Part shown: piece by piece, positions 31,219 to 53,857 of the stretch
Layout: each line of letters begins with the position of its first letter
How positions within the stretch are numbered: the stretch's first letter is position 1
NCBI GenBank assembly: GCA_018062105.1
Contig: JAGOSV010000011.1
Location: forward strand, 1-57,944
DNA from: Sterolibacterium sp.
GTDB lineage: Bacteria; Pseudomonadota; Gammaproteobacteria; Burkholderiales; Rhodocyclaceae
Length of the DNA: 57,944 bases
Reading direction: 5' to 3'
The notes under the pieces: generated by a model
Seen by the model: only the letters and a program-made list of their open reading frames with translations
The model's database searches: none
Told to the model about the DNA's origin: nothing
Position numbers and translations under genes: made by a program

Positions 31219-31482
31219 TTAAGCAGCCCTGCGGTTGAGATGGTAGCGCTGGCTGAAGACAATGGGGGAAAGGAAGCCCAGTCGAGCCTGCTTTCTTACC
31301 CGGTTGTATAAGACCTCGATGTACTCTGTGATGACGCGCTTTGCCTGCTCGCGACTGATGAAGCGGCAGTGATAGACGAGCTTCGTCTTGAGCGTGCCCC
31401 AGAAACTTTCCATCGGCGCGTTGTCCCAGGATTCAGCCAATCCATAGGTCAGCCGATGCTCGTCAATCCAGGCATACTTCAC
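31219..31482 (-). pseudogene. IS3-family OrfB with internal deletion
   Basis: The frame starts like a normal OrfB (MKYAWIDEHR) but after about 13 residues jumps to the extreme C-terminal part (SWDNAPMESFWGTLKTKLVY and IEVLYNRVRKQARLGFLSP). The DDE core is therefore gone except the last region including the final Glu. The join (HRLTYG-LAESW) is in frame, so the residual 87-residue protein may still be made. It overlaps orfA by four bases as in a complete element. Confidence 0.85.
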
Positions 31483-31772
31483 AGCGCATCCCTCGCGAAG
31501 TATGCCGTCGCTTTTTTTAGGATTTCATTCTCCCGCTTCAGCCGGATGTTCTCCGCCCGCACCCGGGAGAGTTCCATCTGCTCCGGGGTGACCACCTTGC
31601 TGCCCGGCCCATTCAGCTTGCCGGCCGCCGACGCCTTTACCCAGTTGCGCAGCATCTGCTCGATCAGCCCCAGCTCCCGGGCCACGGCTCCAACACTCTG
31701 GCCCGCCTTCACGCGCTTCACCGACAGTTCCCTGAACTCCGGTGTGTATCCCTGCTTCGGTATCTTCTTCAA
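31479..31772 (-). CDS. IS3-family OrfA transposase component
   Basis: This is a 97-residue HTH protein of the IS3 (IS2/IS51-like) type. It has YTPEFRELSVKRVKAGQSVG, AVARELGLIEQMLRNWVKA and a leucine zipper (SRVRAENIRLKRENEILKKA). It looks intact, with a GGAAGGAGGGG ribosome site. OrfA alone cannot transpose; it could inhibit or assist related full copies elsewhere. Clear terminal inverted repeats could not be fixed at either end. Confidence 0.88.
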   Translation of the reverse strand: MKKIPKQGYTPEFRELSVKRVKAGQSVGAVARELGLIEQMLRNWVKASAAGKLNGPGSKVVTPEQMELSRVRAENIRLKRENEILKKATAYFARDAL

Positions 31773-31979
31773 CTTCGCCCCTCCTTCCCATTTACCGGGG
31801 CGTTATACCCCATCTCTTGGAAGACGAAATTTCGGGGGAAGCTCACATGAGGTGGAGGTCATGAATCTGGAAACCATCAATGGAGTTGTCTATCCATGCC
31901 ACACACCGTCATTGCTCATTCCACAGGCTGGGGCGGGAAGGTAGCGCTCATGACTGCCGGAGAACCGGCAGGGTGGGCA
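31773..31979. other. Intergenic stretch with strong hairpin
   Basis: No gene is visible. A 7-bp hairpin CTGCCGG-AGAA-CCGGCAG (31954-31971) lies just past the FecR gene's stop codon on the minus strand. It lacks a T-tract but could still end that operon or protect the mRNA 3' end. Confidence 0.4.
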
Positions 31980-32603
31980 TCATGGTGTAACGGTGGCAAA
32001 GGCTTGCTGCTTTTTGGCTTCTCCCCAGGCTTTGGCCGGAGTGGGTGCGGCACCATCGGGAACGGTCGTGCCCAGGCCAGGTTGATCCAGGATGACCTGG
32101 CCATAATCATTTTTGACATAGACACCCCGACCATCGAGCATGAGGACATCCAGGCTGTTTTCGGTCAGGCCATAGCCTCCCCAGAAATCTGTTCCCCGCA
32201 CCCCGATGGTGGCGGTAGCGGTACGGACTTCAAAACGATGTGGACGCTGGGTTATGGCACCTGTGATGCTGCGAAAAGCCCCCTTGGCCAGTTCAAACAG
32301 GGCGATGTTCTGTTTTTTGCGGTTGATCTGGTAGTGATGGATGGTGAAATCGCTGTCCTTGCCTACGGTGATCCGTGTGCCATCGCGCAGGCTCAGTTGT
32401 GCCAGGCTCGCTGCGGCCGTCACCAGACGATCACCCTGGCACAGGGATGCCCCTGGGGTTGGCTGGCTGACCTGGCCACGGCGGTGTAATTGCACCTGTC
32501 CCGAGAGCGATTCCAGCCGTCCCGTTGCACAGGACTCGGCCAGGGCAATGCTGGCCAGTGATGTCAGGATCAGGGTCAGGAGCAGTTTTTGCAGTTTTTG
32601 CAT
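31980..32603 (-). CDS. FecR-domain exported protein
   Basis: This is a 207-residue protein with a signal peptide (LQKLLLTLILTSLASIALA). A FecR domain (GQVQLHRRGQ...LCQGDRLVTA, SLAQLSLRDGTRITVGKDSD, FRSITGAITQRP, ATIGVRGTDFWGGY) covers most of the length. Unlike classic FecR it has no cytoplasmic tail or membrane anchor and no sigma factor beside it, so a signalling role is doubtful; such stand-alone FecR proteins are thought to bind cell-wall or surface partners. It is the last gene of the minus-strand lipid cluster, 83 bp after OmpW. Confidence 0.87.
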   Translation of the reverse strand: MQKLQKLLLTLILTSLASIALAESCATGRLESLSGQVQLHRRGQVSQPTPGASLCQGDRLVTAAASLAQLSLRDGTRITVGKDSDFTIHHYQINRKKQNIALFELAKGAFRSITGAITQRPHRFEVRTATATIGVRGTDFWGGYGLTENSLDVLMLDGRGVYVKNDYGQVILDQPGLGTTVPDGAAPTPAKAWGEAKKQQAFATVTP

Positions 32604-32686
32604 GATGATTCCTGTCCGGAAAAGCAAAGGGATTCAAACGGGTATTTGCGGCCTTGCCCGTTTGCTATGGGGTCAGTGCTATGGGG

Positions 32687-33514
32687 TCAGAAGCGATAGC
32701 CGAGGGTCAGCGAGGTGGCGACGGTGGGGATGTCCATCTTGGCGGAGCTGGTGAGGATGACATTGCCGGTCTTGTCCTTGATGCGGATGGTCGAGACGGT
32801 TTTGGTCGGGACGTAGCTGACGGCTACTCCGGCCACCCATTTAGGATGCGGATAGTAGGCCAGACCGACGTTGTACAGTGGTGCCCATGCGGAGGAGGCA
32901 TCGGCTTCGACGGTTGTCTGGGTCGATAGGGTGGAGGCCATGGCCATGAAGCCGCCGGCTTGCTTGAGGTTCTTTTCGAAATTCGGCGATACCTTGACGT
33001 CGCGGAAGAAGCTGTAACCGAGACCGAGGCTGACGAAGGGGCGGAAGGTGTCGTTGCGACTGCCGAAATAGTACTGCACCATCGCCGACGGATACCAGTG
33101 GACGGCGGTGGCTACGGGGTTGTTGGCTGGGTCACCCATGAATACCGGAGGGACAACCTTGTTGAGCAGGCCTGGTGTGGTGACGCTGCCTTTGCCCAGC
33201 ACATCGATCTTGGGCGGGGTGCCGAGATTGAGCGAGATGGCCCAGTTGTCGGTCATGAAATAAGCCAGACGAAGGATAAGGCTGGTGGCATTGCCGGAGG
33301 TTTGTTCCGTTCCTGGAGAGTCGAACTGCGTTGGTACCAGCCCGCTCTGGGTGGCGATTGAGGGCGCCAGCACGTTATGTTGCGGTGTGCTGCTGCTGCG
33401 GTCGTTGTTGAGGTAGGCAATGCCCGGCGAGAGGATCCATTCGCCGGCAGTGGCGTGCGCCAGATTACTGGCCATGAGGAGGGTGCAGGTGGCGAGGCAT
33501 CGTGCAGCAATCAT
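32687..33514 (-). CDS. OmpW-family outer membrane protein
   Basis: This is a 275-residue eight-stranded outer-membrane beta-barrel. It has a signal peptide (residues 1-23), GEWILSPGIAYLNND, NWAISLNLGTPPKID, FRPFVSLGLGYSFF, YPHPKWVAGVAVSYVPTKT and the C-terminal aromatic LTLGYRF for BAM recognition. OmpW/AlkL-type barrels admit small hydrophobic molecules across the outer membrane. It is longer than E. coli OmpW (about 210) because of extracellular-loop insertions near 35-75 and 170-210. Its place among acyl-CoA genes supports a role in lipid uptake. Confidence 0.9.
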   Translation of the reverse strand: MIAARCLATCTLLMASNLAHATAGEWILSPGIAYLNNDRSSSTPQHNVLAPSIATQSGLVPTQFDSPGTEQTSGNATSLILRLAYFMTDNWAISLNLGTPPKIDVLGKGSVTTPGLLNKVVPPVFMGDPANNPVATAVHWYPSAMVQYYFGSRNDTFRPFVSLGLGYSFFRDVKVSPNFEKNLKQAGGFMAMASTLSTQTTVEADASSAWAPLYNVGLAYYPHPKWVAGVAVSYVPTKTVSTIRIKDKTGNVILTSSAKMDIPTVATSLTLGYRF

Positions 33515-33572
33515 GGGAATTCCTCTGTCGTTGTATCAAACAAGGTGTTGATGAGGTATGGCATTTCAGGCG

Positions 33573-34421
33573 TTATTTGAGCGATCCCTGTCGCAGGGCT
33601 TCTTCGACCCAGCGGGCGTATTTTGAGGTCTTGCTGGCATCAAGGTATTTCTTGCTCTTGGCCATTTTCATCATGCCTTCCATGCTGCGCAGGGGAATCT
33701 TGCGAATGTTGGCATTGGTCAGGGTGATCGGTAGACCGGGGCCGAGATCCGGATCGATCAGGTAGGTGACCCGGGTATGTTCCCGGTCTATCCATTCCAG
33801 CTTGTATTGGGCATAGAAGGACGGCATGCGCAGCACATCCTTGCCGGAGTCGTGTTTCAGGTCGTCGGTTGAACGGGCTTCGATGATGCGGATGCCATTG
33901 GCGTGATCGGAGAGCACTGTCGAACGGAGCAGCATGTCGCGATCCCGCAGGATGGGAATGTGCTGGTGCAGCCAGAAGACGATGGTGTCGTTTTCGTCGT
34001 CTTCGATCTTGAGGATTTTGCTGCCGCTGCAATCGTACATCCAGGAAGGGAAGGCCTCGATGTCACGCAGGATGGTGCCGAGCACCTCGATGCGTGCCGA
34101 TACGTCGCAGACGGCCTTGGCAGCGACGTAATCGCGGCCGGCCACGACGCTGCTGTAGCTCTTGCAGGGGGTATCGCTGCGGTCCAGTTCCCAGGTGTAT
34201 TTGTGTGGTTCGCTGGCCTGGGGCGGGGGGCTGCCGGCCTGGGCTGGGCGGATCATGGGGGGCAGGCTCAGCAGCAGGGGGAGCAGCACACAGGATAGGG
34301 TGCGGCGGGCTATGGAGCGTATGGGGAATATGGAGGCTACGGGAGCCATAGGGGCAACGGCCGCCGCTGTGGTCATGTTTTGCTGCAGTCTCCTGGCAAC
34401 CATCACTTCTCCTGTCGTCAC
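33573..34421 (-). CDS. Exported START-domain lipid-binding protein
   Basis: This is a 282-residue protein, or 276 from the ATG at 34403. A hydrophobic segment at about 39-62 (LSCVLLPLLLSLPPMIRPAQ then AGS) reads as a signal peptide. The START fold follows (YTWELDRSDTPCKSYSSVVA, IEVLGTILRDIEAFPSWMYD, FWLHQHIPILRDRDM, YAQYKLEWIDREHTRVTYLI, IPLRSMEGMMKMAKSKKYL). START domains enclose a single lipid or sterol, so a periplasmic carrier between OmpW and the inner membrane is plausible. It lies 32 bp after the fadD stop in the same run. Confidence 0.83.
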   Translation of the reverse strand: MTTGEVMVARRLQQNMTTAAAVAPMAPVASIFPIRSIARRTLSCVLLPLLLSLPPMIRPAQAGSPPPQASEPHKYTWELDRSDTPCKSYSSVVAGRDYVAAKAVCDVSARIEVLGTILRDIEAFPSWMYDCSGSKILKIEDDENDTIVFWLHQHIPILRDRDMLLRSTVLSDHANGIRIIEARSTDDLKHDSGKDVLRMPSFYAQYKLEWIDREHTRVTYLIDPDLGPGLPITLTNANIRKIPLRSMEGMMKMAKSKKYLDASKTSKYARWVEEALRQGSLK

Positions 34422-34453
34422 GGGGCAAAGCGGTTGATCCGGCCAGCGGCGTA

Positions 34454-36187
34454 CTATACCGGACGTGCTGGTTCCGGCGTATCCCGCAGCGCGCGCCGCA
34501 GGATTTTGCCGACGATGGTTTTTGGCAGTTCGTCGCGGAACTCGACTTGGCGCGGAATCTTGTAGCCGGTCAGGTTTTCGCGGCAGTGGCGGAGGACTTC
34601 CTCCCGGGTCAGCGCGGGGCTGCGCGGCACGATGAAGACTTTGATGCGTTCGCCGGCCACCTCGTCCGGGATGCCGATGGCGGCAGCTTCGAGCACCTCG
34701 GGATGGCTGAGCAGCACTTCCTCGATTTCATTGGGGAAGACATTGAAGCCCGAGACAAGGATCATGTCTTTTTTGCGGTCGATGAGGCGGATGTAGCCGT
34801 CTTCGTCCATGATGCCGATATCGCCGGTGGCCAGCCAGCCAGCCTCATCGAGGACGCGGGCGGTTTCTTCTGGCCGCTGCCAGTAGCCTTGCATCACCTG
34901 CGGGCCGAAGACGCACAGTTCGCCGGCTTCTCCCGTGTCTGCCCAACTGCCGTCTTCCCGCCGCATGCGCACCCAGGTGGAGGGTACGGGCAGACCGATG
35001 GAACCATTGAAGACGACGGGGCGGGAAATATCGACCGGGTTGATGGTGACGATGGGGGAACATTCCGTCAGGCCGTAGCCTTCGACGATATCGACACCGG
35101 TCACTTTTTTCCATTTTTCGGCCACGCTGCGCGACATCGCCATGCCACCGGCCAGCGCCAGCTTGAGCGGGCGAAAATCGCGCCGGCAGAATTCCTCGTT
35201 TTCGAGGAAGGACGAGAATAGGGTGCTGACGGCGGTGATGCCGGAGAATTGCTCTTTTCTCAGGATACGTGTCATGCGCCGGGTGTCGCGCGGGTTGGCG
35301 ATCAGGATGTTGCGTCCGCCCAGGCCGAGGAAAATCAGGCAATTTACCGTCAGCGAGTAGATGTGGTACATCGGCAACGGTGTCAGGATGGTCTCGGTGG
35401 CAGCGGTCATCTGGCCAGCGGCCCAGGCCTTGGCTTGCAGCAGGTTGGCGAGGATGTTGCGGTGTGTGAGCATGGCCCCCTTGGCCACGCCGGTGGTGCC
35501 GCCGGTGTATTGCAGGAAGGCCAGGTCGGTTTGTGCCATAGCCACCGGGGTGAAAGGCAGGTGCGTTCCCTGTTTCAGGGCAGTCCGCAGCCGGGTGACC
35601 CGTTCGCGCGGCAGATGGTGGGGCGGCACCATTTTCTGGAAGTAGCGGACGGCCAGGTTGAGTGCCCGTCCCTTGAGGTTGAGCTTGCCGCCCAGCAGGT
35701 CGCCCAGTTCGGTCAGGAGGATGCGGCGCACGGCGGTTTCCGGCAGGGCTTTTTCTAGCGTATGGGCAAAGTTTTCGAGGATGACGATGGTTTGGGCGCC
35801 GCTGTCCTTGAGCTGGTGCGCCAGCTCGCGGGCGGTGTAGAGCGGGTTCACGTTGACCACGATGGCGCCGGCCTTGAGGGTGCCGAACAGTGCCACCGGG
35901 TACTGGAACAGGTTAGGCAGCATCAGGGCCACACGATCACCCTTGGTGACTCCCGCTGCTTGCAGCCAGGCGGCAAATGCCGTGGCCTGACGGTCGAGCG
36001 CGGCATAGCTCAGCTGGCTGCCGATGCTGATGAAGGCGGTGCGGTCGCGGAACTTGTCGATGCACTCGTCAAAATAGTGATTGATCGAGGCATAGGCTTC
36101 CAGGTCGATGTCGGCCGGTACGCCGGCCACATAGGATTTCAGCCAGATGCGTTCTGGCAGGTCAGATGGGGAATGAGGCGGCATCAT
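34454..36187 (-). CDS. fadD: Long-chain acyl-CoA ligase
   Basis: This is a 577-residue ANL-superfamily enzyme that activates fatty acids (or other lipophilic carboxylic acids) with ATP and CoA. Signature motifs are FLQYTGGTTGVAKGAMLTHR (P-loop-like), YGLTECSPIV, TGDIGIMDEDGYI and the C-terminal lysine region in LPKTIVGKILRR. It resembles FadD most; exact chain preference cannot be read. It is downstream of the thiolase by 31 bp. Confidence 0.93.
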   Translation of the reverse strand: MMPPHSPSDLPERIWLKSYVAGVPADIDLEAYASINHYFDECIDKFRDRTAFISIGSQLSYAALDRQATAFAAWLQAAGVTKGDRVALMLPNLFQYPVALFGTLKAGAIVVNVNPLYTARELAHQLKDSGAQTIVILENFAHTLEKALPETAVRRILLTELGDLLGGKLNLKGRALNLAVRYFQKMVPPHHLPRERVTRLRTALKQGTHLPFTPVAMAQTDLAFLQYTGGTTGVAKGAMLTHRNILANLLQAKAWAAGQMTAATETILTPLPMYHIYSLTVNCLIFLGLGGRNILIANPRDTRRMTRILRKEQFSGITAVSTLFSSFLENEEFCRRDFRPLKLALAGGMAMSRSVAEKWKKVTGVDIVEGYGLTECSPIVTINPVDISRPVVFNGSIGLPVPSTWVRMRREDGSWADTGEAGELCVFGPQVMQGYWQRPEETARVLDEAGWLATGDIGIMDEDGYIRLIDRKKDMILVSGFNVFPNEIEEVLLSHPEVLEAAAIGIPDEVAGERIKVFIVPRSPALTREEVLRHCRENLTGYKIPRQVEFRDELPKTIVGKILRRALRDTPEPARPV

Positions 36188-36218
36188 GAAGGGTCTCCGC
36201 AGCCGTATGACCTGCAGT

Positions 36219-37502
36219 TTATCGTTCGAGGATGGCGACGATGCCCTGACCGCCGGCTGCGCAAATGGAGATCAGGCCGCGGCCGCTACCTTTTTCGGCC
36301 AGCATCTTGGCCAGCGTGGCGATGATGCGCCCGCCGGTGGCGGCAAAGGGGTGGCCGGTGGCCAGCGAACTGCCGTTGAGGTTGAACTTCGCGGGATCGA
36401 TGGCACCCAGCGGGGCAGATAACCCCAGCCGTTCGCGGCAGAAGGCGGGATCCTGCCAGGCTTTCAGGGTGCACAACACCTGGGCAGCGAAGGCTTCGTG
36501 GATTTCGTAGAAGTCGAAGTCCTGCAAGGTCAGCCCGGCGCGGGCCAGCATGCGCGGCACGGCATAGGCCGGTGCCATCAGCAGACCTTCTTTCTTGTGC
36601 ACGAAATCGACGGCAGCAACTTCGGAAAAACTCAGCCAGGCCTGCACCGGTAGTCCCTTGGCACGCGCCCAGTCTTCGCTAGCCAGGAGCACACAGGAGG
36701 CACCATCGGTCAGGGTGGTCGAGTTGGCGGCAGTCAGGGTGCCGTGGGCACGGTCAAAGGCGGGTCTGAGGGTGGCGAGCTTTTCTGTGGTGATGTCCGG
36801 ACGCAGGTTGTTGTCGCGATTGAGCCCTTGAAACGGTGTCACCAGGTCGGTGAAAAAGCCGCGCTCAAAGGCAGCAGCCAGTTTGCGGTGGCTCTCGACC
36901 GCCATCTGATCCTGTTCATCGCGCGGAATCTGCCATTCCTTGGCCATCAGCTCGCAGTGTTCGCCCATCGACAGGCCAGTACGTGGCTCGGTGTTGCGTG
37001 GCAGGAGCAGCTTGAAGAACATGTCGGGGCGTAGTTTCATGGCCTTGGCGACACGCTGCCCGGTTCCCTTGCTGCGGTTGATGTCGAGCAGTATCTTGCG
37101 CATCCGTTCGTTGACACCGATCGGGGCATCCGAGGTGGTATCTACACCACCGGCGATGCCGACATCGATCTGCCCCAGGGCTATCTTGTTGGCGACCAGA
37201 ATGGCAGCTTCCAGCCCCGTGCCGCAGGCTTGTTGCAGATCGTAGGCCGGTGTTTCCGGTGCCAGGGTGGTCGACAGGACGGCTTCGCGCGTCAGGTTGA
37301 AATCGCGCGAATGCTTGATGACCGCACCGGCGGCGACTTCGCCTAGGCGTTCGTGATGCAGGTGATAGCGGTCGATGAGTCCTTGCAGGGCGGCCGTCAG
37401 CATCTGCTGGTTGGAGGCTTCGGCATAGGCCGTGTTGGAACGGGCAAAGGGGATACGATTCCCGCCGAGGATGGCGACGCGGCGGATGCTGGCGATGCTC
37501 AT
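36219..37502 (-). CDS. Acetyl-CoA C-acyltransferase (FadI/FadA2-type thiolase)
   Basis: This 427-residue thiolase is on the long side, as for FadI and mycobacterial FadA2. The active cysteine is in LQQACGTGLEAAILVANK (about 92), the histidine in NGSSLATGHPFAATGGR and the second cysteine in SICAAGGQG. I start it at the ATG at 37502 (MSIASIRRVAILGGNRIPFA). It cleaves 3-ketoacyl-CoA in beta-oxidation or runs in reverse. In this cluster it sits with a MaoC hydratase and a high-molecular-weight FabG, the same trio as fadA2-htdX-fabG4 in mycobacteria. Confidence 0.93.
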   Translation of the reverse strand: MSIASIRRVAILGGNRIPFARSNTAYAEASNQQMLTAALQGLIDRYHLHHERLGEVAAGAVIKHSRDFNLTREAVLSTTLAPETPAYDLQQACGTGLEAAILVANKIALGQIDVGIAGGVDTTSDAPIGVNERMRKILLDINRSKGTGQRVAKAMKLRPDMFFKLLLPRNTEPRTGLSMGEHCELMAKEWQIPRDEQDQMAVESHRKLAAAFERGFFTDLVTPFQGLNRDNNLRPDITTEKLATLRPAFDRAHGTLTAANSTTLTDGASCVLLASEDWARAKGLPVQAWLSFSEVAAVDFVHKKEGLLMAPAYAVPRMLARAGLTLQDFDFYEIHEAFAAQVLCTLKAWQDPAFCRERLGLSAPLGAIDPAKFNLNGSSLATGHPFAATGGRIIATLAKMLAEKGSGRGLISICAAGGQGIVAILER

Positions 37503-37580
37503 GGACTGTCCTCCGAAAATGTGATGCAACAGGCGATGCAACAGACTGGGTGCTGAGGCTTGTATCGGGGCGGTGTTCCT

Positions 37581-38468
37581 TCAGTCAGCTTGCCAAAAAC
37601 CGCGTAGATGGGGTTTCTCCCCGCGCCCGTCACGGACTTCAAAACATTGTCCGTGATCCTGTGTGTATGGGTCGGCCCATAGGGTGGCCTTGCCGGGCAG
37701 TAGCAGAGGCGTCTTGAATTCCACCCGAATCTGGGCGGTATCGACAGGCTGTGCGGGCATCAGAGCCGCCAGGGCGCGTGCTTTGGTCCACATGCCGTGG
37801 GCGATGGCACGCGGGAAGCCGAAAGCCAGGGCCGTCAGGCGGTGCAGATGGATGGGGTTGAGGTCGCCGGAGAGTCGTCCATAACGCTGCCCCAGACGGC
37901 CATCGAGCAACCATTCCTGGCTTGGCTGGTGGGCGTGAACCTCGGTCAGCCGGCTTTGACAGGGCGTGCCATGCGGCGTGTGGATGCCGCTACGCAGATA
38001 GGCGCTGTCGCTTTCCCAGAGGCATTCGTGTTGCGGGCTGCGGGTATCCAGGATGCGGCTGGTCAGGCTGAAGACCTGGCCCTTTTCATGTGCCTGAGGG
38101 TGTTCCAGACAGACTTCGACGCGCACCTGCTGGCCGGGTTCGATGCGCTGGTGCTGATGGATCGTATTGCTCAGATGCACCATGCCCATCATCGACCAGG
38201 GAAAAGCTGGGTCGGCCATCAGCAGCATATGTAGCGGAAAGGCCAGCATGTGCGGGTAAGTCAGCGGCACGCCGTGTGCCGGCAGGAAGCCGCATATTTC
38301 GGCGTAACGGGCAATGTGCGCGGTGTCCAGAGTCACTTCCGGGCGTGCCAGTGAGAGGGCGGGCAGCGGTGCCGGACGGTTTTTCTTGCGTGCTGTCAGC
38401 AGCGCCGCGCCATACAGGCGTAGCGGCGAGGGCAGGGGGGGGTACTCATGCGGCAGCGGCAGCGACAT
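37581..38468 (-). CDS. HtdX-type MaoC double-hotdog hydratase
   Basis: This is a 295-residue protein with two hotdog halves, close to the 280 residues of mycobacterial HtdX. The hydratase signature with catalytic Asp and His is in the C-terminal half: RYGRLSGDLNPIHLHRLTAL then AFGFPRAIAHGMWTKA. The N-terminal half (PLTYPHMLAFPLHMLLMADP) lacks catalytic residues and shapes the acyl tunnel in relatives. The reaction is R-specific hydration/dehydration of enoyl-CoA. It is 11 bp after fabG. Confidence 0.9.
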   Translation of the reverse strand: MSLPLPHEYPPLPSPLRLYGAALLTARKKNRPAPLPALSLARPEVTLDTAHIARYAEICGFLPAHGVPLTYPHMLAFPLHMLLMADPAFPWSMMGMVHLSNTIHQHQRIEPGQQVRVEVCLEHPQAHEKGQVFSLTSRILDTRSPQHECLWESDSAYLRSGIHTPHGTPCQSRLTEVHAHQPSQEWLLDGRLGQRYGRLSGDLNPIHLHRLTALAFGFPRAIAHGMWTKARALAALMPAQPVDTAQIRVEFKTPLLLPGKATLWADPYTQDHGQCFEVRDGRGEKPHLRGFWQAD

Positions 38469-38479
38469 GGCTTTCAGGC

Positions 38480-39904
38480 TCAGGCGCCAATCATGCTCTG
38501 GCCGCAGACCCGCACGATGTTGCCGGTGATGCCGGCAGAAGCGGGGCAGGCGAACCAGGCGATGGTCTCGGCCACATCGACGGTCTGCCCGCCCTGATTC
38601 ATCGAATTCATCAGCCGTGCCGCCGTGCGAATGGTGAAGGGGATGGCATCCGTCATCTGTGTTTCGATGAAGCCCGGAGCGACGGCATTGATGGCGATAG
38701 CGTGTTCGCGCAGCCGTGGTGCCATGCTGTGCACCATGCCGATGACGCCGGCCTTGGAGACAGCATAGTTGGTTTGCCCCATGTTGCCGGCGATGCCGCT
38801 GATCGAGGAAACACAGACGATGCGCCCGCCGCGTTTGATGGCCTGTGCGGCAAGCAGGGCATCGTTGATGCGCTCCTGGGCACTCAGGTTGACCTCGATC
38901 ACCAGTGCCCAGTTGGCCTCTTTCATGTTGGCGATGGTCTTGTCGCGGGTGATGCCGGCGTTATGCACGAGGATGTCGATGCCCCCGTGAACCTGGGCTG
39001 CGGCTACCATTTTCTGCGGTGCATCGGCAGCCGTGACATCGAGAGGCAGGGCGATGCCATCGAGTTTTTTTGCCACTTCATGCAAGGCGGCCTCGGCCTG
39101 CGGCACATCGACGCAAATGACTTTTGCGCCGTCGCGCGCCAGTACTTCGGCAATCGAGGCACCAATGCCGCGCGATACGCCGGTCACCAGCGCCGTCTGC
39201 CCTTGCAAGGGGCGGCTCCAGTCGGCAACCTTGCTGGCCGTAGCCACAGCACCGATACGGATAACCTGGCCGGATACATAGGCGGAACGGGGCGAGAGCA
39301 GGAAACGCAAGGTCGAATCGATGCCGCCTTCGGCACCTTCGGCGACATAGACCAGTTGTGCCGTGCAACCGCGCCGTACTTCCTTGCCCAGCGAGCGCGT
39401 CATACCTTCCAGGGCACGCTGCGCCGTGGCCTGGCGCGGCGTGGCGCAGGATTCCGGTGGGCGGCCAAGGATGAGGATGCGGGCACATTTGCCCAGCGAA
39501 CGCACCGTGTCATGGAAGAAGTGATAGAGACTGCCCAGCTGGGCACTGTCCGTGATGTTGCTGGCATCGAATACCAGTGCTTTGACCGGACGTGCCGTGC
39601 TGCCCTTGGCTGGCGGCGTGAAACGCCCGACCATCAGACCGGCACGGTTGGCCTCGGCCACCCAGGAAGGCGCGGCACCATGGCTCAGTACCGTGGCCTT
39701 CATGTCGGCCAGGGCTTGCAATACGGACGACAGCAGCGGCTGCCCGGCGTGACACTCCTGCGCCGTACCCAGGATGACTTCTCCTTCGATCACGGCCTGG
39801 CCTGGACGATAACGTTCCAGCCGTGGCGGCTTGGGCAGTCCCAATGTGCCGGCGAGCTTGCCGCCCAGGGCAGAGTTGGCAAAGCGCAGATAGGGATCGG
39901 TCAT
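38480..39904 (-). CDS. FabG4-type high-molecular-weight 3-ketoacyl reductase
   Basis: This 474-residue protein is about twice the length of ordinary FabG. Residues about 1-215 form an extra flavodoxin-like N-terminal domain (SSVLQALADMKATVLSHGAA, KALVFDASNITDSAQL), as in FabG4 of mycobacteria. Residues 225-470 are a complete SDR domain: TGVSRGIGASIAEVL (cofactor loop), HNAGITRDKTIANM, catalytic Ser and Tyr/Lys in VSSISGIAGNMGQTNYAVSK and NAVAPGFIETQMT. FabG4 proteins reduce 3-ketoacyl-CoA to the R-hydroxy form. It is first in the seven-gene run. Confidence 0.93.
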   Translation of the reverse strand: MTDPYLRFANSALGGKLAGTLGLPKPPRLERYRPGQAVIEGEVILGTAQECHAGQPLLSSVLQALADMKATVLSHGAAPSWVAEANRAGLMVGRFTPPAKGSTARPVKALVFDASNITDSAQLGSLYHFFHDTVRSLGKCARILILGRPPESCATPRQATAQRALEGMTRSLGKEVRRGCTAQLVYVAEGAEGGIDSTLRFLLSPRSAYVSGQVIRIGAVATASKVADWSRPLQGQTALVTGVSRGIGASIAEVLARDGAKVICVDVPQAEAALHEVAKKLDGIALPLDVTAADAPQKMVAAAQVHGGIDILVHNAGITRDKTIANMKEANWALVIEVNLSAQERINDALLAAQAIKRGGRIVCVSSISGIAGNMGQTNYAVSKAGVIGMVHSMAPRLREHAIAINAVAPGFIETQMTDAIPFTIRTAARLMNSMNQGGQTVDVAETIAWFACPASAGITGNIVRVCGQSMIGA

Positions 39905-39959
39905 TGCAGAAACTCCATGGATAGACGAGCCGACAAAAAATGATTATGGGCACGGGTTA

Positions 39960-39972
39960 AAACAATCGTTTG
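39960..39972. promoter_or_regulatory. PsrA-like operator before the lipid operon
   Basis: AAAC-AATC-GTTTG fits the AAAC-N(2-4)-GTTT core bound by the fatty-acid-sensing TetR regulator PsrA. It lies directly downstream of the proposed -10, over the expected transcription start, 56-68 bases before the fabG-like gene. Confidence 0.42.
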
Positions 39973-40001
39973 AATTTATCATTATTTCATTTTGTGGGCA
40001 A
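39973..40001 (-). promoter_or_regulatory. Possible promoter of the lipid operon
   Basis: On the minus strand, TTGCCC (40001-39996), a 17-base spacer and TAAATT (39978-39973) match sigma-70 reasonably. The region 39905-40082 holds no gene. Confidence 0.45.
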
Positions 40002-40082: not shown

Positions 40083-40120
40083 AAAAAAAGCCACCACCAT
40101 GAAAGTCATGATGATGGCTT
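40083..40120 (-). terminator. Intrinsic terminator of the amtB operon
   Basis: On the minus strand a fully paired 15-bp stem (40120-40106 with 40102-40088, including G-U pairs) with a 3-base loop is followed by seven T. It lies about 50 bp past the amtB stop. Confidence 0.85.
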
Positions 40121-41680: not shown

Positions 41681-42827
<1,147 letters not shown>

Positions 42828-42884
42828 CGAGATTCTCCAGAGGGTTGATTTTTGGGATAGCAGGAAATGCCCGCATAGGTCTAT

Positions 42885-42900
42885 AGCAGGATGTATGCCA
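42885..42900 (-). promoter_or_regulatory. Sigma-54 promoter of porin-glnK-amtB
   Basis: On the minus strand TGGCATACATCCTGCT has GG and GC exactly ten bases apart, the -24/-12 signature. Transcription should start about 45 bases before the porin ATG. Confidence 0.8.
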
Positions 42901-43004
42901 AAAATAAAATCATTTGAAATCAAATGACTACAAGATGCATTCAGTATTTTTGCGGTGAAATGGTGCCGGGATTGCACCATTTTTCAATGGCCAATACGCA
43001 CCAC

Positions 43005-51647: not shown

Positions 51648-52772
51648 TCATTGCAGTGGGAGTGCGCCCCCCTTCTGCCGGCTACGATACAGGCTCAAGG
51701 CGGCATCGAGACGGAGCTGTTCGGTGGGGGTGAATTGCGTACTGCGCATTTTTTGCTGGGTCGTCGGGTCGGCGGCGGCCAGACGGGCGATGCGCTGCTG
51801 CCATTCGGCTTCCTGACGATCGACTTGCGCCATGCGTGTGGCGGCTTCGGCACCGAATTGTGCCGTGCGTTCCTTCAGACGCTGCTCTGCTGTGGCGGCG
51901 GATTGGGTTAAATCAGCATTCTGGCGGGTGATGCGCAGCGGCAGCAGGGCGGTCTGGCGAGCCTCCCGCTGTTCTTGCGTCAACAAAGCCGCTGAGCGCT
52001 CGTCGATCAGGCCGGCTTTTTGCTGGTCGTTCATGTCCGTGCGTTCGGTAATGCGCAGGCGCTCCACGGTAAAACCGTCGTAGCGGTTGTCATCACCAAA
52101 CAAGCCGGCGATTTCCGGGCCGCTGAAGAGCTGCTGCTGGATGGCCATGCGCGCGGCCAGTATGTCTGCCAGCCTTTGCGAAGAGGTGCCGTCAAAATCG
52201 GCCGGCCGCAGCCCGGCCAGCTGGCTGCGATATTGCTGATATTGGGTTAGCAGGCGCTGCGCCTGGGCCAGATATTCTGCCGGTACCTGTTCGGCCAGCA
52301 GGCGCTCCGGATGTTCGGAATGGCGCCCGAGAATCTGTTCGAAAATACGCAACAGGTCTGGATTCAGCAAAGGGTCGTGCCCCCGCGCCAGCCATGCCGT
52401 GACATCGAGCTTTTGGCGCTCGATGTCGGCGGGGAATATCGTCGTCCTCCCGTCCTCTTCCCCCTGCCCTGCCTTGCCCTGGGCGGCCGTGTGTGAGGAG
52501 GCCGGTTCACCAGGCACCCGATCTGCGGCGGGTAGTGATATGGCAGGAGCATCCGGCGGTGCTGTTTGGTTCCCGGAGCGTCCAAATAACCCGTTTAGCC
52601 CGCCTGTGCTGCCCATGCCTATCAGTCCTGCCAGGGCGGCAAGCAGCAGCAATCCGACAGCGACTGTGGCAACAGGGGTGGGAGCGGGAGTGGCTGAACC
52701 GGAGACAAAGCCGGGGCCGGGCGTGGACGTGGATATACCCTCCCCTGCCTTCTGCCCGCCGTTATTGGTCAC
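51648..52772 (-). CDS. lifO: Lipase-specific foldase (lipase chaperone)
   Basis: This is a 374-residue steric chaperone for the neighbouring lipase. One membrane anchor is at about 35-55 (VATVAVGLLLLAALAGLIGM), then a Pro/Ala-rich linker, then an all-helical foldase domain from about 115 with many AEQRLKERTAQFGAEAATRM-type segments typical of Lif. The conserved RxxFDY motif is replaced by RIFEQIL (about residue 142). It starts at GTG, overlapping the lipase stop (GTGA), so the two are made together. Confidence 0.88.
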   Translation of the reverse strand: MTNNGGQKAGEGISTSTPGPGFVSGSATPAPTPVATVAVGLLLLAALAGLIGMGSTGGLNGLFGRSGNQTAPPDAPAISLPAADRVPGEPASSHTAAQGKAGQGEEDGRTTIFPADIERQKLDVTAWLARGHDPLLNPDLLRIFEQILGRHSEHPERLLAEQVPAEYLAQAQRLLTQYQQYRSQLAGLRPADFDGTSSQRLADILAARMAIQQQLFSGPEIAGLFGDDNRYDGFTVERLRITERTDMNDQQKAGLIDERSAALLTQEQREARQTALLPLRITRQNADLTQSAATAEQRLKERTAQFGAEAATRMAQVDRQEAEWQQRIARLAAADPTTQQKMRSTQFTPTEQLRLDAALSLYRSRQKGGALPLQ

Positions 52773-53770
52773 AGCCCCAGGTTCTTCAGGCGGTTGGCGT
52801 GTTCGCGATAGACCATGACCGGGCTGATATCGAAGGGCGAAACCAGACCCCAGAAATTGTTGATCTCGTCCAGATGGTTCTGCTTATAGACCCCCAGCTG
52901 ACGTCCCAGGCGTGAGGCGCACACCGTGACCAAACCATCGTTGGCCGTCTTGTCTTCCGGATCGAACAGACGAGTCATGCTGCCAGTCAGGGCAAAGACG
53001 TAATCGATGGGATCGATCCCGCTGGTCAATGTGGCATTCCCTGTCCAGGAGTAATAGCGGATATTGCCGACCAGTTCCGGGCCGTGCAGTTCGCCGCAGT
53101 CGGCAGGCGGCAGGCCGGCCGGAAAACGGGCATTGAAGTCGGCCATGCCCTTGACACTCAGCGCGCCAAAGGCCTTGAAGGCATCTTCCGGGGTATTTTT
53201 CTTGCCGGAGAGCAGGTCCTCGAGCTTGGCCAGTCCTTCGGCAAAGGTCTTAACCACGCCCCCCAGCAAGGTGCCTTGCATCGGTACGGCAATATCCGTC
53301 AGCGGCTGGCCACGGGCATTGAGCCCGGCTACCGTGGTCACGGAAGCCACGGCCTCCGGCATGATACCGGCCACATAACGAATGGTTGGCCCACCGTGTG
53401 AATGACCGATGAGATGCACTTTGGGCGTGCCGGTGGCGGCCATGATGTAACGCACCTGGCTGGCCAACTGCTCACCCCGTTCTTCCGAGGTATTGAGGCC
53501 GGATACCGCTGTGACATAGACCGGTGCCCCGCCGGCACGCAGGTCGGGGACGATTTTGTACCAGTAATCGAGCACTCCGTTGAGGATGCTATCAAAGCCC
53601 AGCAGGCCATGCACCAGCACGATCGGATAGCGGACTGCGGTGTAGCCCGGAGCCGGCTGCCCCACTCCGGCGGCGGTAGCAACAGGTATCTGTATCCCGC
53701 CCATCAGAGTCGTCAGGATCAACGACCAGAACAGCAACATCCGTAAAGACCAGCGATTGAGCAGATACAT
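52769..53770 (-). CDS. Secreted triacylglycerol lipase (family I.1/I.2-like)
   Basis: This is a 333-residue alpha/beta hydrolase with a signal peptide (residues 1-34). The oxyanion segment is YPIVLVHGLLGFDSI, the nucleophile is Ser124 in GHSHGG, the acid Asp278 in NDGLV and the base His299 in NHLDEINNFWG. Cys225 and Cys283/284 can form the family disulphide. Lipases of this type fold in the periplasm with Lif and leave by type II secretion. The start is the ATG at 53770 (MYLLNRWSLRM). Confidence 0.93.
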   Translation of the reverse strand: MYLLNRWSLRMLLFWSLILTTLMGGIQIPVATAAGVGQPAPGYTAVRYPIVLVHGLLGFDSILNGVLDYWYKIVPDLRAGGAPVYVTAVSGLNTSEERGEQLASQVRYIMAATGTPKVHLIGHSHGGPTIRYVAGIMPEAVASVTTVAGLNARGQPLTDIAVPMQGTLLGGVVKTFAEGLAKLEDLLSGKKNTPEDAFKAFGALSVKGMADFNARFPAGLPPADCGELHGPELVGNIRYYSWTGNATLTSGIDPIDYVFALTGSMTRLFDPEDKTANDGLVTVCASRLGRQLGVYKQNHLDEINNFWGLVSPFDISPVMVYREHANRLKNLGL

Positions 53771-53857
53771 GTTTCTACCTCCCCCGATGTTTATGTCTCC
53801 ATGCCTCTGCCCATTGAGCACCGGCAACCCTGGTACCTTAGCAGATTGTTGGCAGAT

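Follow-up and report, generated by a model that had tools for sequence, protein, structure and literature searches.

In a stretch of Sterolibacterium sp. DNA of 57,944 nucleotides (contig JAGOSV010000011.1), referred to here as the window, seven genes lie in succession on the minus strand and encode, in the order in which they would be transcribed, a FabG4-type reductase, an HtdX-type hydratase, a FadA2-type thiolase, a FadD-like acyl-CoA ligase, a START-domain protein, an OmpW-family outer membrane barrel and a FecR-domain protein. The first six form a core whose order is kept in relatives of the same genus. Sterolibacterium is a genus of anaerobic cholesterol degraders, and the operon may supply a missing piece in the handling of water-insoluble sterols by these bacteria.

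The minus-strand gene cluster and its edges

The first four genes encode enzymes (the coordinates of all seven genes are on the minus strand). The FabG4-type protein (38480..39904, 474 amino acids) is a two-domain 3-oxoacyl-CoA/ACP reductase that matches NF006110 (PRK08261) over residues 1-474, its full length, with 659.5 bits against a cut-off of 410, and it carries the SDR Ser-Tyr-Lys motif together with the Asp in VICVD. The HtdX-type protein (37581..38468, 295 amino acids) is a MaoC (R)-hydratase (PF01575, 42.3 bits, cut-off 27) belonging to R-specific hydratase 2, in which the hydratase-2 motif with its Asp and His reads YGRLSGDLNPIH, while the FadA2-type thiolase (36219..37502, 427 amino acids from an ATG start) scores 765.4 bits against NF006740 (PRK09268, cut-off 539) and retains the Cys, GHP and C-terminal Cys motifs. 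The motif patterns for the four enzymes, including that of hydratase 2, are those we take to be characteristic, and they are intact in every copy checked, namely four of four for FabG4 and five of five each for HtdX, FadA2 and FadD. An earlier note on this DNA had likened the first three genes to the mycobacterial fabG4-htdX-fadA2 group, and these matches uphold that comparison. The FadD-like protein (34454..36187, 577 amino acids) is an AMP-forming acyl-CoA ligase by its Pfam domains (PF00501 and PF13193), but its best NCBIfam match, the FadD equivalog NF006523, gives 768.8 bits and falls under the cut-off of 884, and it passes no cut-off among the best 25 of 107 models. Annotation of the unit with Pfam and NCBIfam found neither an acyl-CoA dehydrogenase gene nor an enoyl reductase gene in the operon.

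The remaining genes appear to encode envelope proteins. The START-domain protein (33573..34403 if it begins at an ATG, giving 276 amino acids, or 33573..34421 from a GTG, giving 282) is the exception among the seven, as the Pfam scores of the other six exceed their cut-offs whereas its own match to PF01852 is borderline (21.5 bits, cut-off 22). We nevertheless call it START-like, because all 21 aligned START proteins, including that of the window, give a START match at E<=0.01, the best of them at 3.6e-13, and because a profile of them finds the solved bacterial START protein 3qsz with an E-value of 1.3e-11; the same profile finds START domain-containing protein 10 (6ser) at 5e-4. It has a hydrophobic stretch and an AQA site, judged by hydropathy and by eye, and is probably exported. 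The OmpW-family barrel (32687..33514, 275 amino acids) matches PF03922 with 49.8 bits (cut-off 24), and its profile matches the structures of OmpW, AlkL and OprG. The FecR-domain protein (31980..32603 from an ATG start) matches PF04773 with 57.1 bits (cut-off 24) and is likewise probably exported.

From FabG4 to FecR the genes are separated by 11, 78, 31, 32 (50 if START begins at the ATG), 58 and 83 bp. The minus-strand layout of seven open reading frames, with these gaps and families, was correctly described in the earlier note and is confirmed here. The note had also reasoned that promoters or terminators separating the acyl-CoA genes from START, OmpW and FecR would speak against a common unit. 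No terminator-like site was found in the operon gaps by a scan that as a whole was near chance (10 found against 7.0 expected), and the two further minus-strand sites that it reported both lie within genes. The sole internal promoter-like site (33539-33510, 5' of ompW) is within chance expectation (2 found against 2.7 expected). Six stretches were folded, and both edges of the unit are stable beyond shuffles (z about -3.1), while among the four internal gaps folded, those of 11 and 32 bp not being included, none stands out clearly from its shuffles in stability (z -0.86 to 1.23). The upstream edge is the intrinsic terminator of the upstream amt gene (40088..40120, minus strand), a 15-pair stem followed by a T run in a stretch with a z of -3.07. 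At the downstream edge a minus-strand hairpin 3' of fecR (31954..31971), which has no T run, is a possible end of the unit; the stretch that contains it (31930-31980) has a z of -3.12. The genes are putatively co-transcribed. Further upstream, a Gcw_chp protein gene (42054-42980) precedes a PII-like gene and amt.

Conservation in Sterolibacterium and distribution beyond it

The genus is represented in our collection by four genomes, that of the window (G000), G145, G203 and G217, which together provide five loci for comparison (the window, L010, L011, L020 and L040). The core fabG4-htdX-fadA2-fadD-START-ompW is complete and in the same order in the window, L010, L011 and L020, and the last five core genes, from htdX onward, are present in L040, which lacks fabG4 because its contig begins at htdX. 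START and then OmpW follow fadD in all five. Two of the loci, L020 and L040, come from G217, which thus holds START and OmpW twice, and since this assembly has 6% contamination the two may derive from different strains. The gaps in the relatives range from -4 to 119 bp. The relatives also have a DUF4442 thioesterase gene inside the operon (four of four other loci), placed between htdX and fadA2 in the order fabG4-htdX-DUF4442-fadA2-fadD-START-ompW of L010, L011 and L020, and overlapping htdX by 4 bp in all four loci and, in two of them, fadA2 by the same length. DUF4442 is matched in three of the four genus genomes; the assembly of the window genome, which is 88.5% complete, gave no match.

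Across the operon genes the proportion of synonymous differences (pS) is 0.32-0.67 and its nonsynonymous to synonymous ratio (pN/pS) 0.12-0.55; for START the ratio is 0.21-0.43 and for OmpW 0.18-0.55, at a pS of 0.46-0.67. The combination of high synonymous change with these ratios suggests purifying selection on all the genes, START and OmpW among them. The retention of gene order in the relatives argues against a chance adjacency of START and OmpW with the acyl-CoA genes, and a concern raised in the earlier note, that this association might be peculiar to one strain, is removed by its presence in all five loci. The same argument does not extend to FecR, which the note had counted as part of the operon: it stands next to ompW in the window only and follows ompW in none of the other four loci, to which the search for it was confined, and we have rejected it as a functional member. 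About 200 bp beyond the end of fecR lies a short transposase open reading frame of the HTH_Tnp_1 family (31479-31772), possibly belonging to an insertion sequence that altered the downstream flank.

Samples of 101 family, 120 order and 369 class genomes were searched, with the window genome included in the counts, which can be low as the best candidates per genome were scored (13 for FabG4 in the order search, 4 for FadA2 and 6 for START in the class search, 8 for S25DH, the steroid C25 dehydrogenase considered below). START relatives occur in three of the 101 family genomes at E<=0.001, all in Sterolibacterium, and in 10 of the 369 class genomes, and the operon type of OmpW is likewise present in three family genomes (E<=1e-15), all Sterolibacterium. 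The FadA2 type was found in 5 of 101 family and 35 of 369 class genomes, and FabG4 in 6 of 120 order genomes. A PF01852 search of the window genome gave no match, but it also gave none in 14 controls and is hence uninformative. In the contigs of a wider set of genomes a single START protein as query found no match, whereas the START alignment found 18 loci, three in Sterolibacterium, one in Spirochaetes, one in Gammaproteobacteria and the remaining 13 labelled Deltaproteobacteria, Smithella, Smithellaceae or Syntrophaceae.

In a START tree of 30 rows, in which the program flagged several long outgroup branches, the five Sterolibacterium proteins form one clade (support 100/100), consistent with a single acquisition, and this clade joins a protein from a Spirochaetes metagenome-assembled genome (96/96) within a mostly deltaproteobacterial and syntrophic group. 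Among these other START loci, tandem START gene pairs occur at L044 and L050, from two metagenome-assembled genomes labelled Deltaproteobacteria; a vitamin K epoxide reductase-like gene lies upstream of START in L045, L046, L050, L052 and L056, and a gene for a small charged protein lies 5' of it in L043, L046, L050, L052 and L056, both recognised by eye.

Neither a two-domain FabG4 nor an OmpW was detected at the nine START loci of the class search (neighbours at E<=1e-3), nor at 15 START loci of other taxa in the wider contigs (neighbours at E<=1e-8), several of which are cut by contig ends and one of which (L048) is the same as L031 of the class set. Thiolase and acyl-CoA ligase genes are convergent to START in the Spirochaetes locus (L047), and weaker ligase matches lie near START in L056 and L057. 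Conversely, 27 FabG4 or FadA2 loci outside the genus (L012-L016, L076, L107 and L108-L127) contain no START and no OmpW at E<=1e-3 or 1e-5; the class FadA2 loci among them are the best 20 of 34 other matching genomes, and some of the stretches are short (L076 and L111 are under 5 kb). In four of the 27 (L012, L014, L108 and L125) fabG4, htdX and fadA2 occur together, and a strong FadD match adjoins them in L125. The co-occurrence of START with fabG4-htdX, which the earlier note had suggested as a check, is therefore found within Sterolibacterium and at none of the loci read outside it.

This pattern bears on the reading in which FabG4-HtdX-FadA2-FadD and START-OmpW are mere neighbours by descent in one genus, with unrelated functions. 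The START relatives that lie outside such an operon and the 27 loci without START or OmpW would fit that idea, as would two genomes (G224 and G255) in which START and the FadA2 type are on different contigs. On the other hand, the adjacency has held in five loci despite high synonymous divergence, the loss of DUF4442 and changed flanks, and we regard the idea as very improbable.

Sterol genes, ligase type and the candidate substrate

S25DH belongs to the class of dimethyl sulfoxide (DMSO) reductase type II alpha enzymes. All four genus genomes match the model for this class (TIGR03479) with best scores of 903-958 bits; the window genome has two such matches, of 912 and 894 bits, both under the cut-off of 984.75, in a comparison in which 11 of 14 controls match too and which was made without a reference S25DH sequence. 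Eight full-length matches, each scoring over 700 bits, come from G145. Sterolibacterium denitrificans carries eight such enzymes, S25DH1-4 and DH5-8 (PMC7411048), and given this agreement in number G145 is probably S. denitrificans. With the window genome's copy as query (E<=1e-200), S25DH-like genes were found in 4 of the 101 family genomes, these being G000, G145, G203 and G199, the last of another genus of the family and with a gene 74% identical.

A cholesterol oxidase gene neighbours the operon in two of the relatives. In L020 the gene for a 550-amino-acid protein, which shares the strand of ompW and begins 35 bp beyond it, matches the cholesterol oxidase model NF058674 with 901 bits (cut-off 850), and in L010 a homologue that is 77% identical to it and also above the cut-off (921 bits) lies 3.7 kb downstream of ompW; the regions concerned are 15300-17845 of L020 and 11320-17501 of L010. 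Two convergent genes stand between ompW and the oxidase in L010. One encodes an enoyl-CoA hydratase that passes the cut-off of a single crotonase-family model, and the other an Old Yellow Enzyme (OYE)-type flavoenzyme, whose best models, the mycofactocin-system OYE and the bile-acid enzyme BaiCD, are both below cut-off. The same two convergent genes follow ompW in L040, where the second is cut by the contig end. In L010 and L040 the 90 bases directly behind ompW fold strongly (-27.8 and -41.8 kcal/mol, values without a shuffle control). As the oxidase adjoins ompW in L020 and is two genes away in L010, an insertion or rearrangement would seem to have moved it. The earlier note had left the substrate between a fatty acid and a sterol or terpenoid acid, and the sterol acid gains weight from the identity of the genome as Sterolibacterium with S25DH-like genes and from the cholesterol oxidase that adjoins ompW in one congener.

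The early steps of cholesterol degradation in Sterolibacterium are proposed to alternate between periplasm and cytoplasm: the side chain is hydroxylated at C25 in the periplasm, dehydrated in the cytoplasm in an ATP-dependent step to a C24=C25 alkene and hydroxylated at C26 in the periplasm, and is then oxidised to DDO-26-carboxylate, which bears the C24=C25 bond and whose CoA ester is formed by an AMP-forming ligase (PMC7411048). This ester is a 2-methyl-2-enoyl-CoA, for which a hydratase, a dehydrogenase and a thiolase would suffice in the first cycle; with the C24=C25 bond in place the cycle would not need an acyl-CoA dehydrogenase, and the operon has none. We infer from this that the operon enzymes suit the first cycle on a delta-24 26-oic acid.

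We propose, with a probability that we put at roughly 45%, that the operon is a transcription unit whose products pass a hydrophobic carboxylate, most probably a side-chain acid of sterol origin, through the envelope and shorten its chain in a CoA-dependent manner. OmpW would admit the hydrophobic molecule across the outer membrane, and the periplasmic START protein would shield it on its way through the periplasm, a compartment in which the genus also carries out its first sterol reactions. In the cytoplasm the FadD-like ligase would convert the 26-oic acid to its CoA ester, so that the route from OmpW through START to FadD would be the one suggested in the earlier note. HtdX would then hydrate the 2-enoyl-CoA, FabG4 would serve as a (R)-3-hydroxyacyl-CoA dehydrogenase that depends on NAD, and cleavage by FadA2 would release propionyl-CoA from the branched end, while the DUF4442 thioesterase, where present, may recycle CoA from dead-end esters.

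Several observations weigh against this proposal. The DMSO reductase alpha cut-off is reached in none of the four genus genomes, while 11 of the 14 controls match the model at E<=0.001, and at the thresholds applied no START and no thiolase of the FadA2 type was found in G199, the genome of another genus with an S25DH-like gene. The window itself contains no cholesterol oxidase, enoyl-CoA hydratase or OYE-like gene (tblastn at E<=1e-10, with the oxidase searched for in the window only), and no oxidase is found in L011 or L040, though just 2.4 and 1.7 kb follow ompW there; the two oxidases that were found have no signal peptide by eye. At the loci read outside the genus, no START relative was found within an operon of this kind. 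The operon FadD scores 768.8 bits against the FadD model and 255.5 against that of steroid-24-oyl-CoA synthetase. Sterol uptake has been ascribed to FadL-like proteins (PMC6208644, PMC6678751), and a figure legend in the account of the pathway (Fig. 5) says that reduction of the delta-24 bond was left out for simplicity (PMC7411048), which suggests that its authors expect the bond to be reduced and argues for a dehydrogenase step rather than direct hydration.

The ligase also bears on the main rival, which is that the substrates are long-chain fatty acids and that the operon is a second, specialised route for them in free form, as from sterol esters or triglycerides, with import by OmpW and START, activation by FadD and R-specific beta-oxidation by HtdX, FabG4 and FadA2 together with acyl-CoA dehydrogenases encoded elsewhere. 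The FadD-like ligase is indeed closest to long-chain fatty acid ligases. However, all four genus genomes encode a further FadD that shares 55-59% identity with the operon copy, and the one in the window genome passes a fatty-acid ligase model (891 bits, cut-off 869) at which the operon copy, with its 768.8, fails; as the latter passes none of the best 25 of 107 models, a special substrate is favoured for the operon ligase, although fatty acids are still compatible. This rival would also account for the FadD-FadA2-FabG4-HtdX cluster of G277 (L125), which showed neither START nor OmpW, and for the taxonomy of START, 13 of whose 18 loci carry deltaproteobacterial or syntrophic labels, groups known for their use of fatty acids and alkanes. 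In the window, an alpha/beta hydrolase gene with a weak lipase C-terminal match lies beside a proteobacterial lipase chaperone gene (51648-53827); the two are likely a secreted lipase pair, which could free fatty acids, as the rival would have it, or split sterol esters. The lack of an acyl-CoA dehydrogenase in the operon and the cholesterol oxidase neighbours in two congeners do not favour a fatty acid route, and we consider it a real but tentative possibility.

A stronger form of the sterol-acid proposal, which we think rather unlikely as a whole, would see in the operon a dedicated sterol line of an anaerobic bacterium, where the periplasmic START protein, acquired once, shuttles sterols between the two membranes and the delta-24 26-oic acid itself enters an R-specific first side-chain cycle of the four enzymes, with no acyl-CoA dehydrogenase involved. 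The enzymes may also work in reverse, FabG4, HtdX and FadA2 elongating or modifying acyl chains for envelope or storage while START and OmpW place the lipid in the outer membrane. Mycobacterial FabG4 and HtdX have been interpreted as a low-energy elongation pair (PMC6008564), and the Bst proteins of a methanotroph are proposed to move sterols outward (PMC10942540), both of which would agree with synthesis. Yet the CoA ligase points to a free acid as substrate, the unit has no enoyl reductase and it is distributed within a genus of sterol degraders, which makes a synthetic role improbable.

Relation to known systems

The triad of FabG4, HtdX and FadA2 is known, but its combination with START and OmpW, and with the cholesterol oxidase of one relative, did not appear among the literature matches listed, none of which joined Sterolibacterium with START, OmpW, SRPBCC or lipid transfer; the genes may still have been reported. 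Sterol uptake and movement in Gram-negative bacteria have been called elusive (PMC6208644, PMC6678751), and a conserved operon of START, a barrel and one cycle of beta-oxidation would offer named genes both for this gap in sterol handling and for the side-chain enzymes.

The closest enzymatic likeness is to the mycobacterial fabG4-htdX group, with its two-domain FabG4 followed by an HtdX-type MaoC gene and its FadA2-type thiolase, where the position of fadA2 is as we presume it to be in mycobacteria. The Sterolibacterium operon, with all its genes on one strand, adds FadD, START and OmpW, and four of five loci also have the DUF4442 thioesterase. FabG4 homologues are present in many proteobacteria, and another protein has been noted downstream of FabG4 (PMC6008564). 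The barrel resembles OmpW, AlkL and OprG in its Pfam family and in its profile matches to their structures, but at 275-288 amino acids the operon proteins are longer than the solved chains (190-219), and the score against the OmpW equivalog is far under the cut-off (56 against 287 bits).

Another close system is the anaerobic cholesterol side-chain pathway of S. denitrificans (S25DH, 25-HSK, S26DH, C26-ALDH and a C26-carboxylate CoA ligase activity), which belongs to the same genus and yields a delta-24 26-oic acid for a ligase to activate ahead of beta-oxidation (PMC7411048). In the parts of that account used here neither the CoA ligase nor the beta-oxidation enzymes are assigned a gene, and START and OmpW do not figure (PMC7411048), uptake being ascribed elsewhere to the FadL-like proteins (PMC6208644, PMC6678751). 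BstA, BstB and BstC of Methylococcus capsulatus provide a further parallel as Gram-negative envelope proteins whose genes lie next to sterol genes, among them a periplasmic protein that binds sterols, although they belong to other families (for example MMPL/RND and periplasmic substrate-binding proteins), come from a sterol maker rather than a degrader and are proposed to act in the outward direction (PMC10942540).

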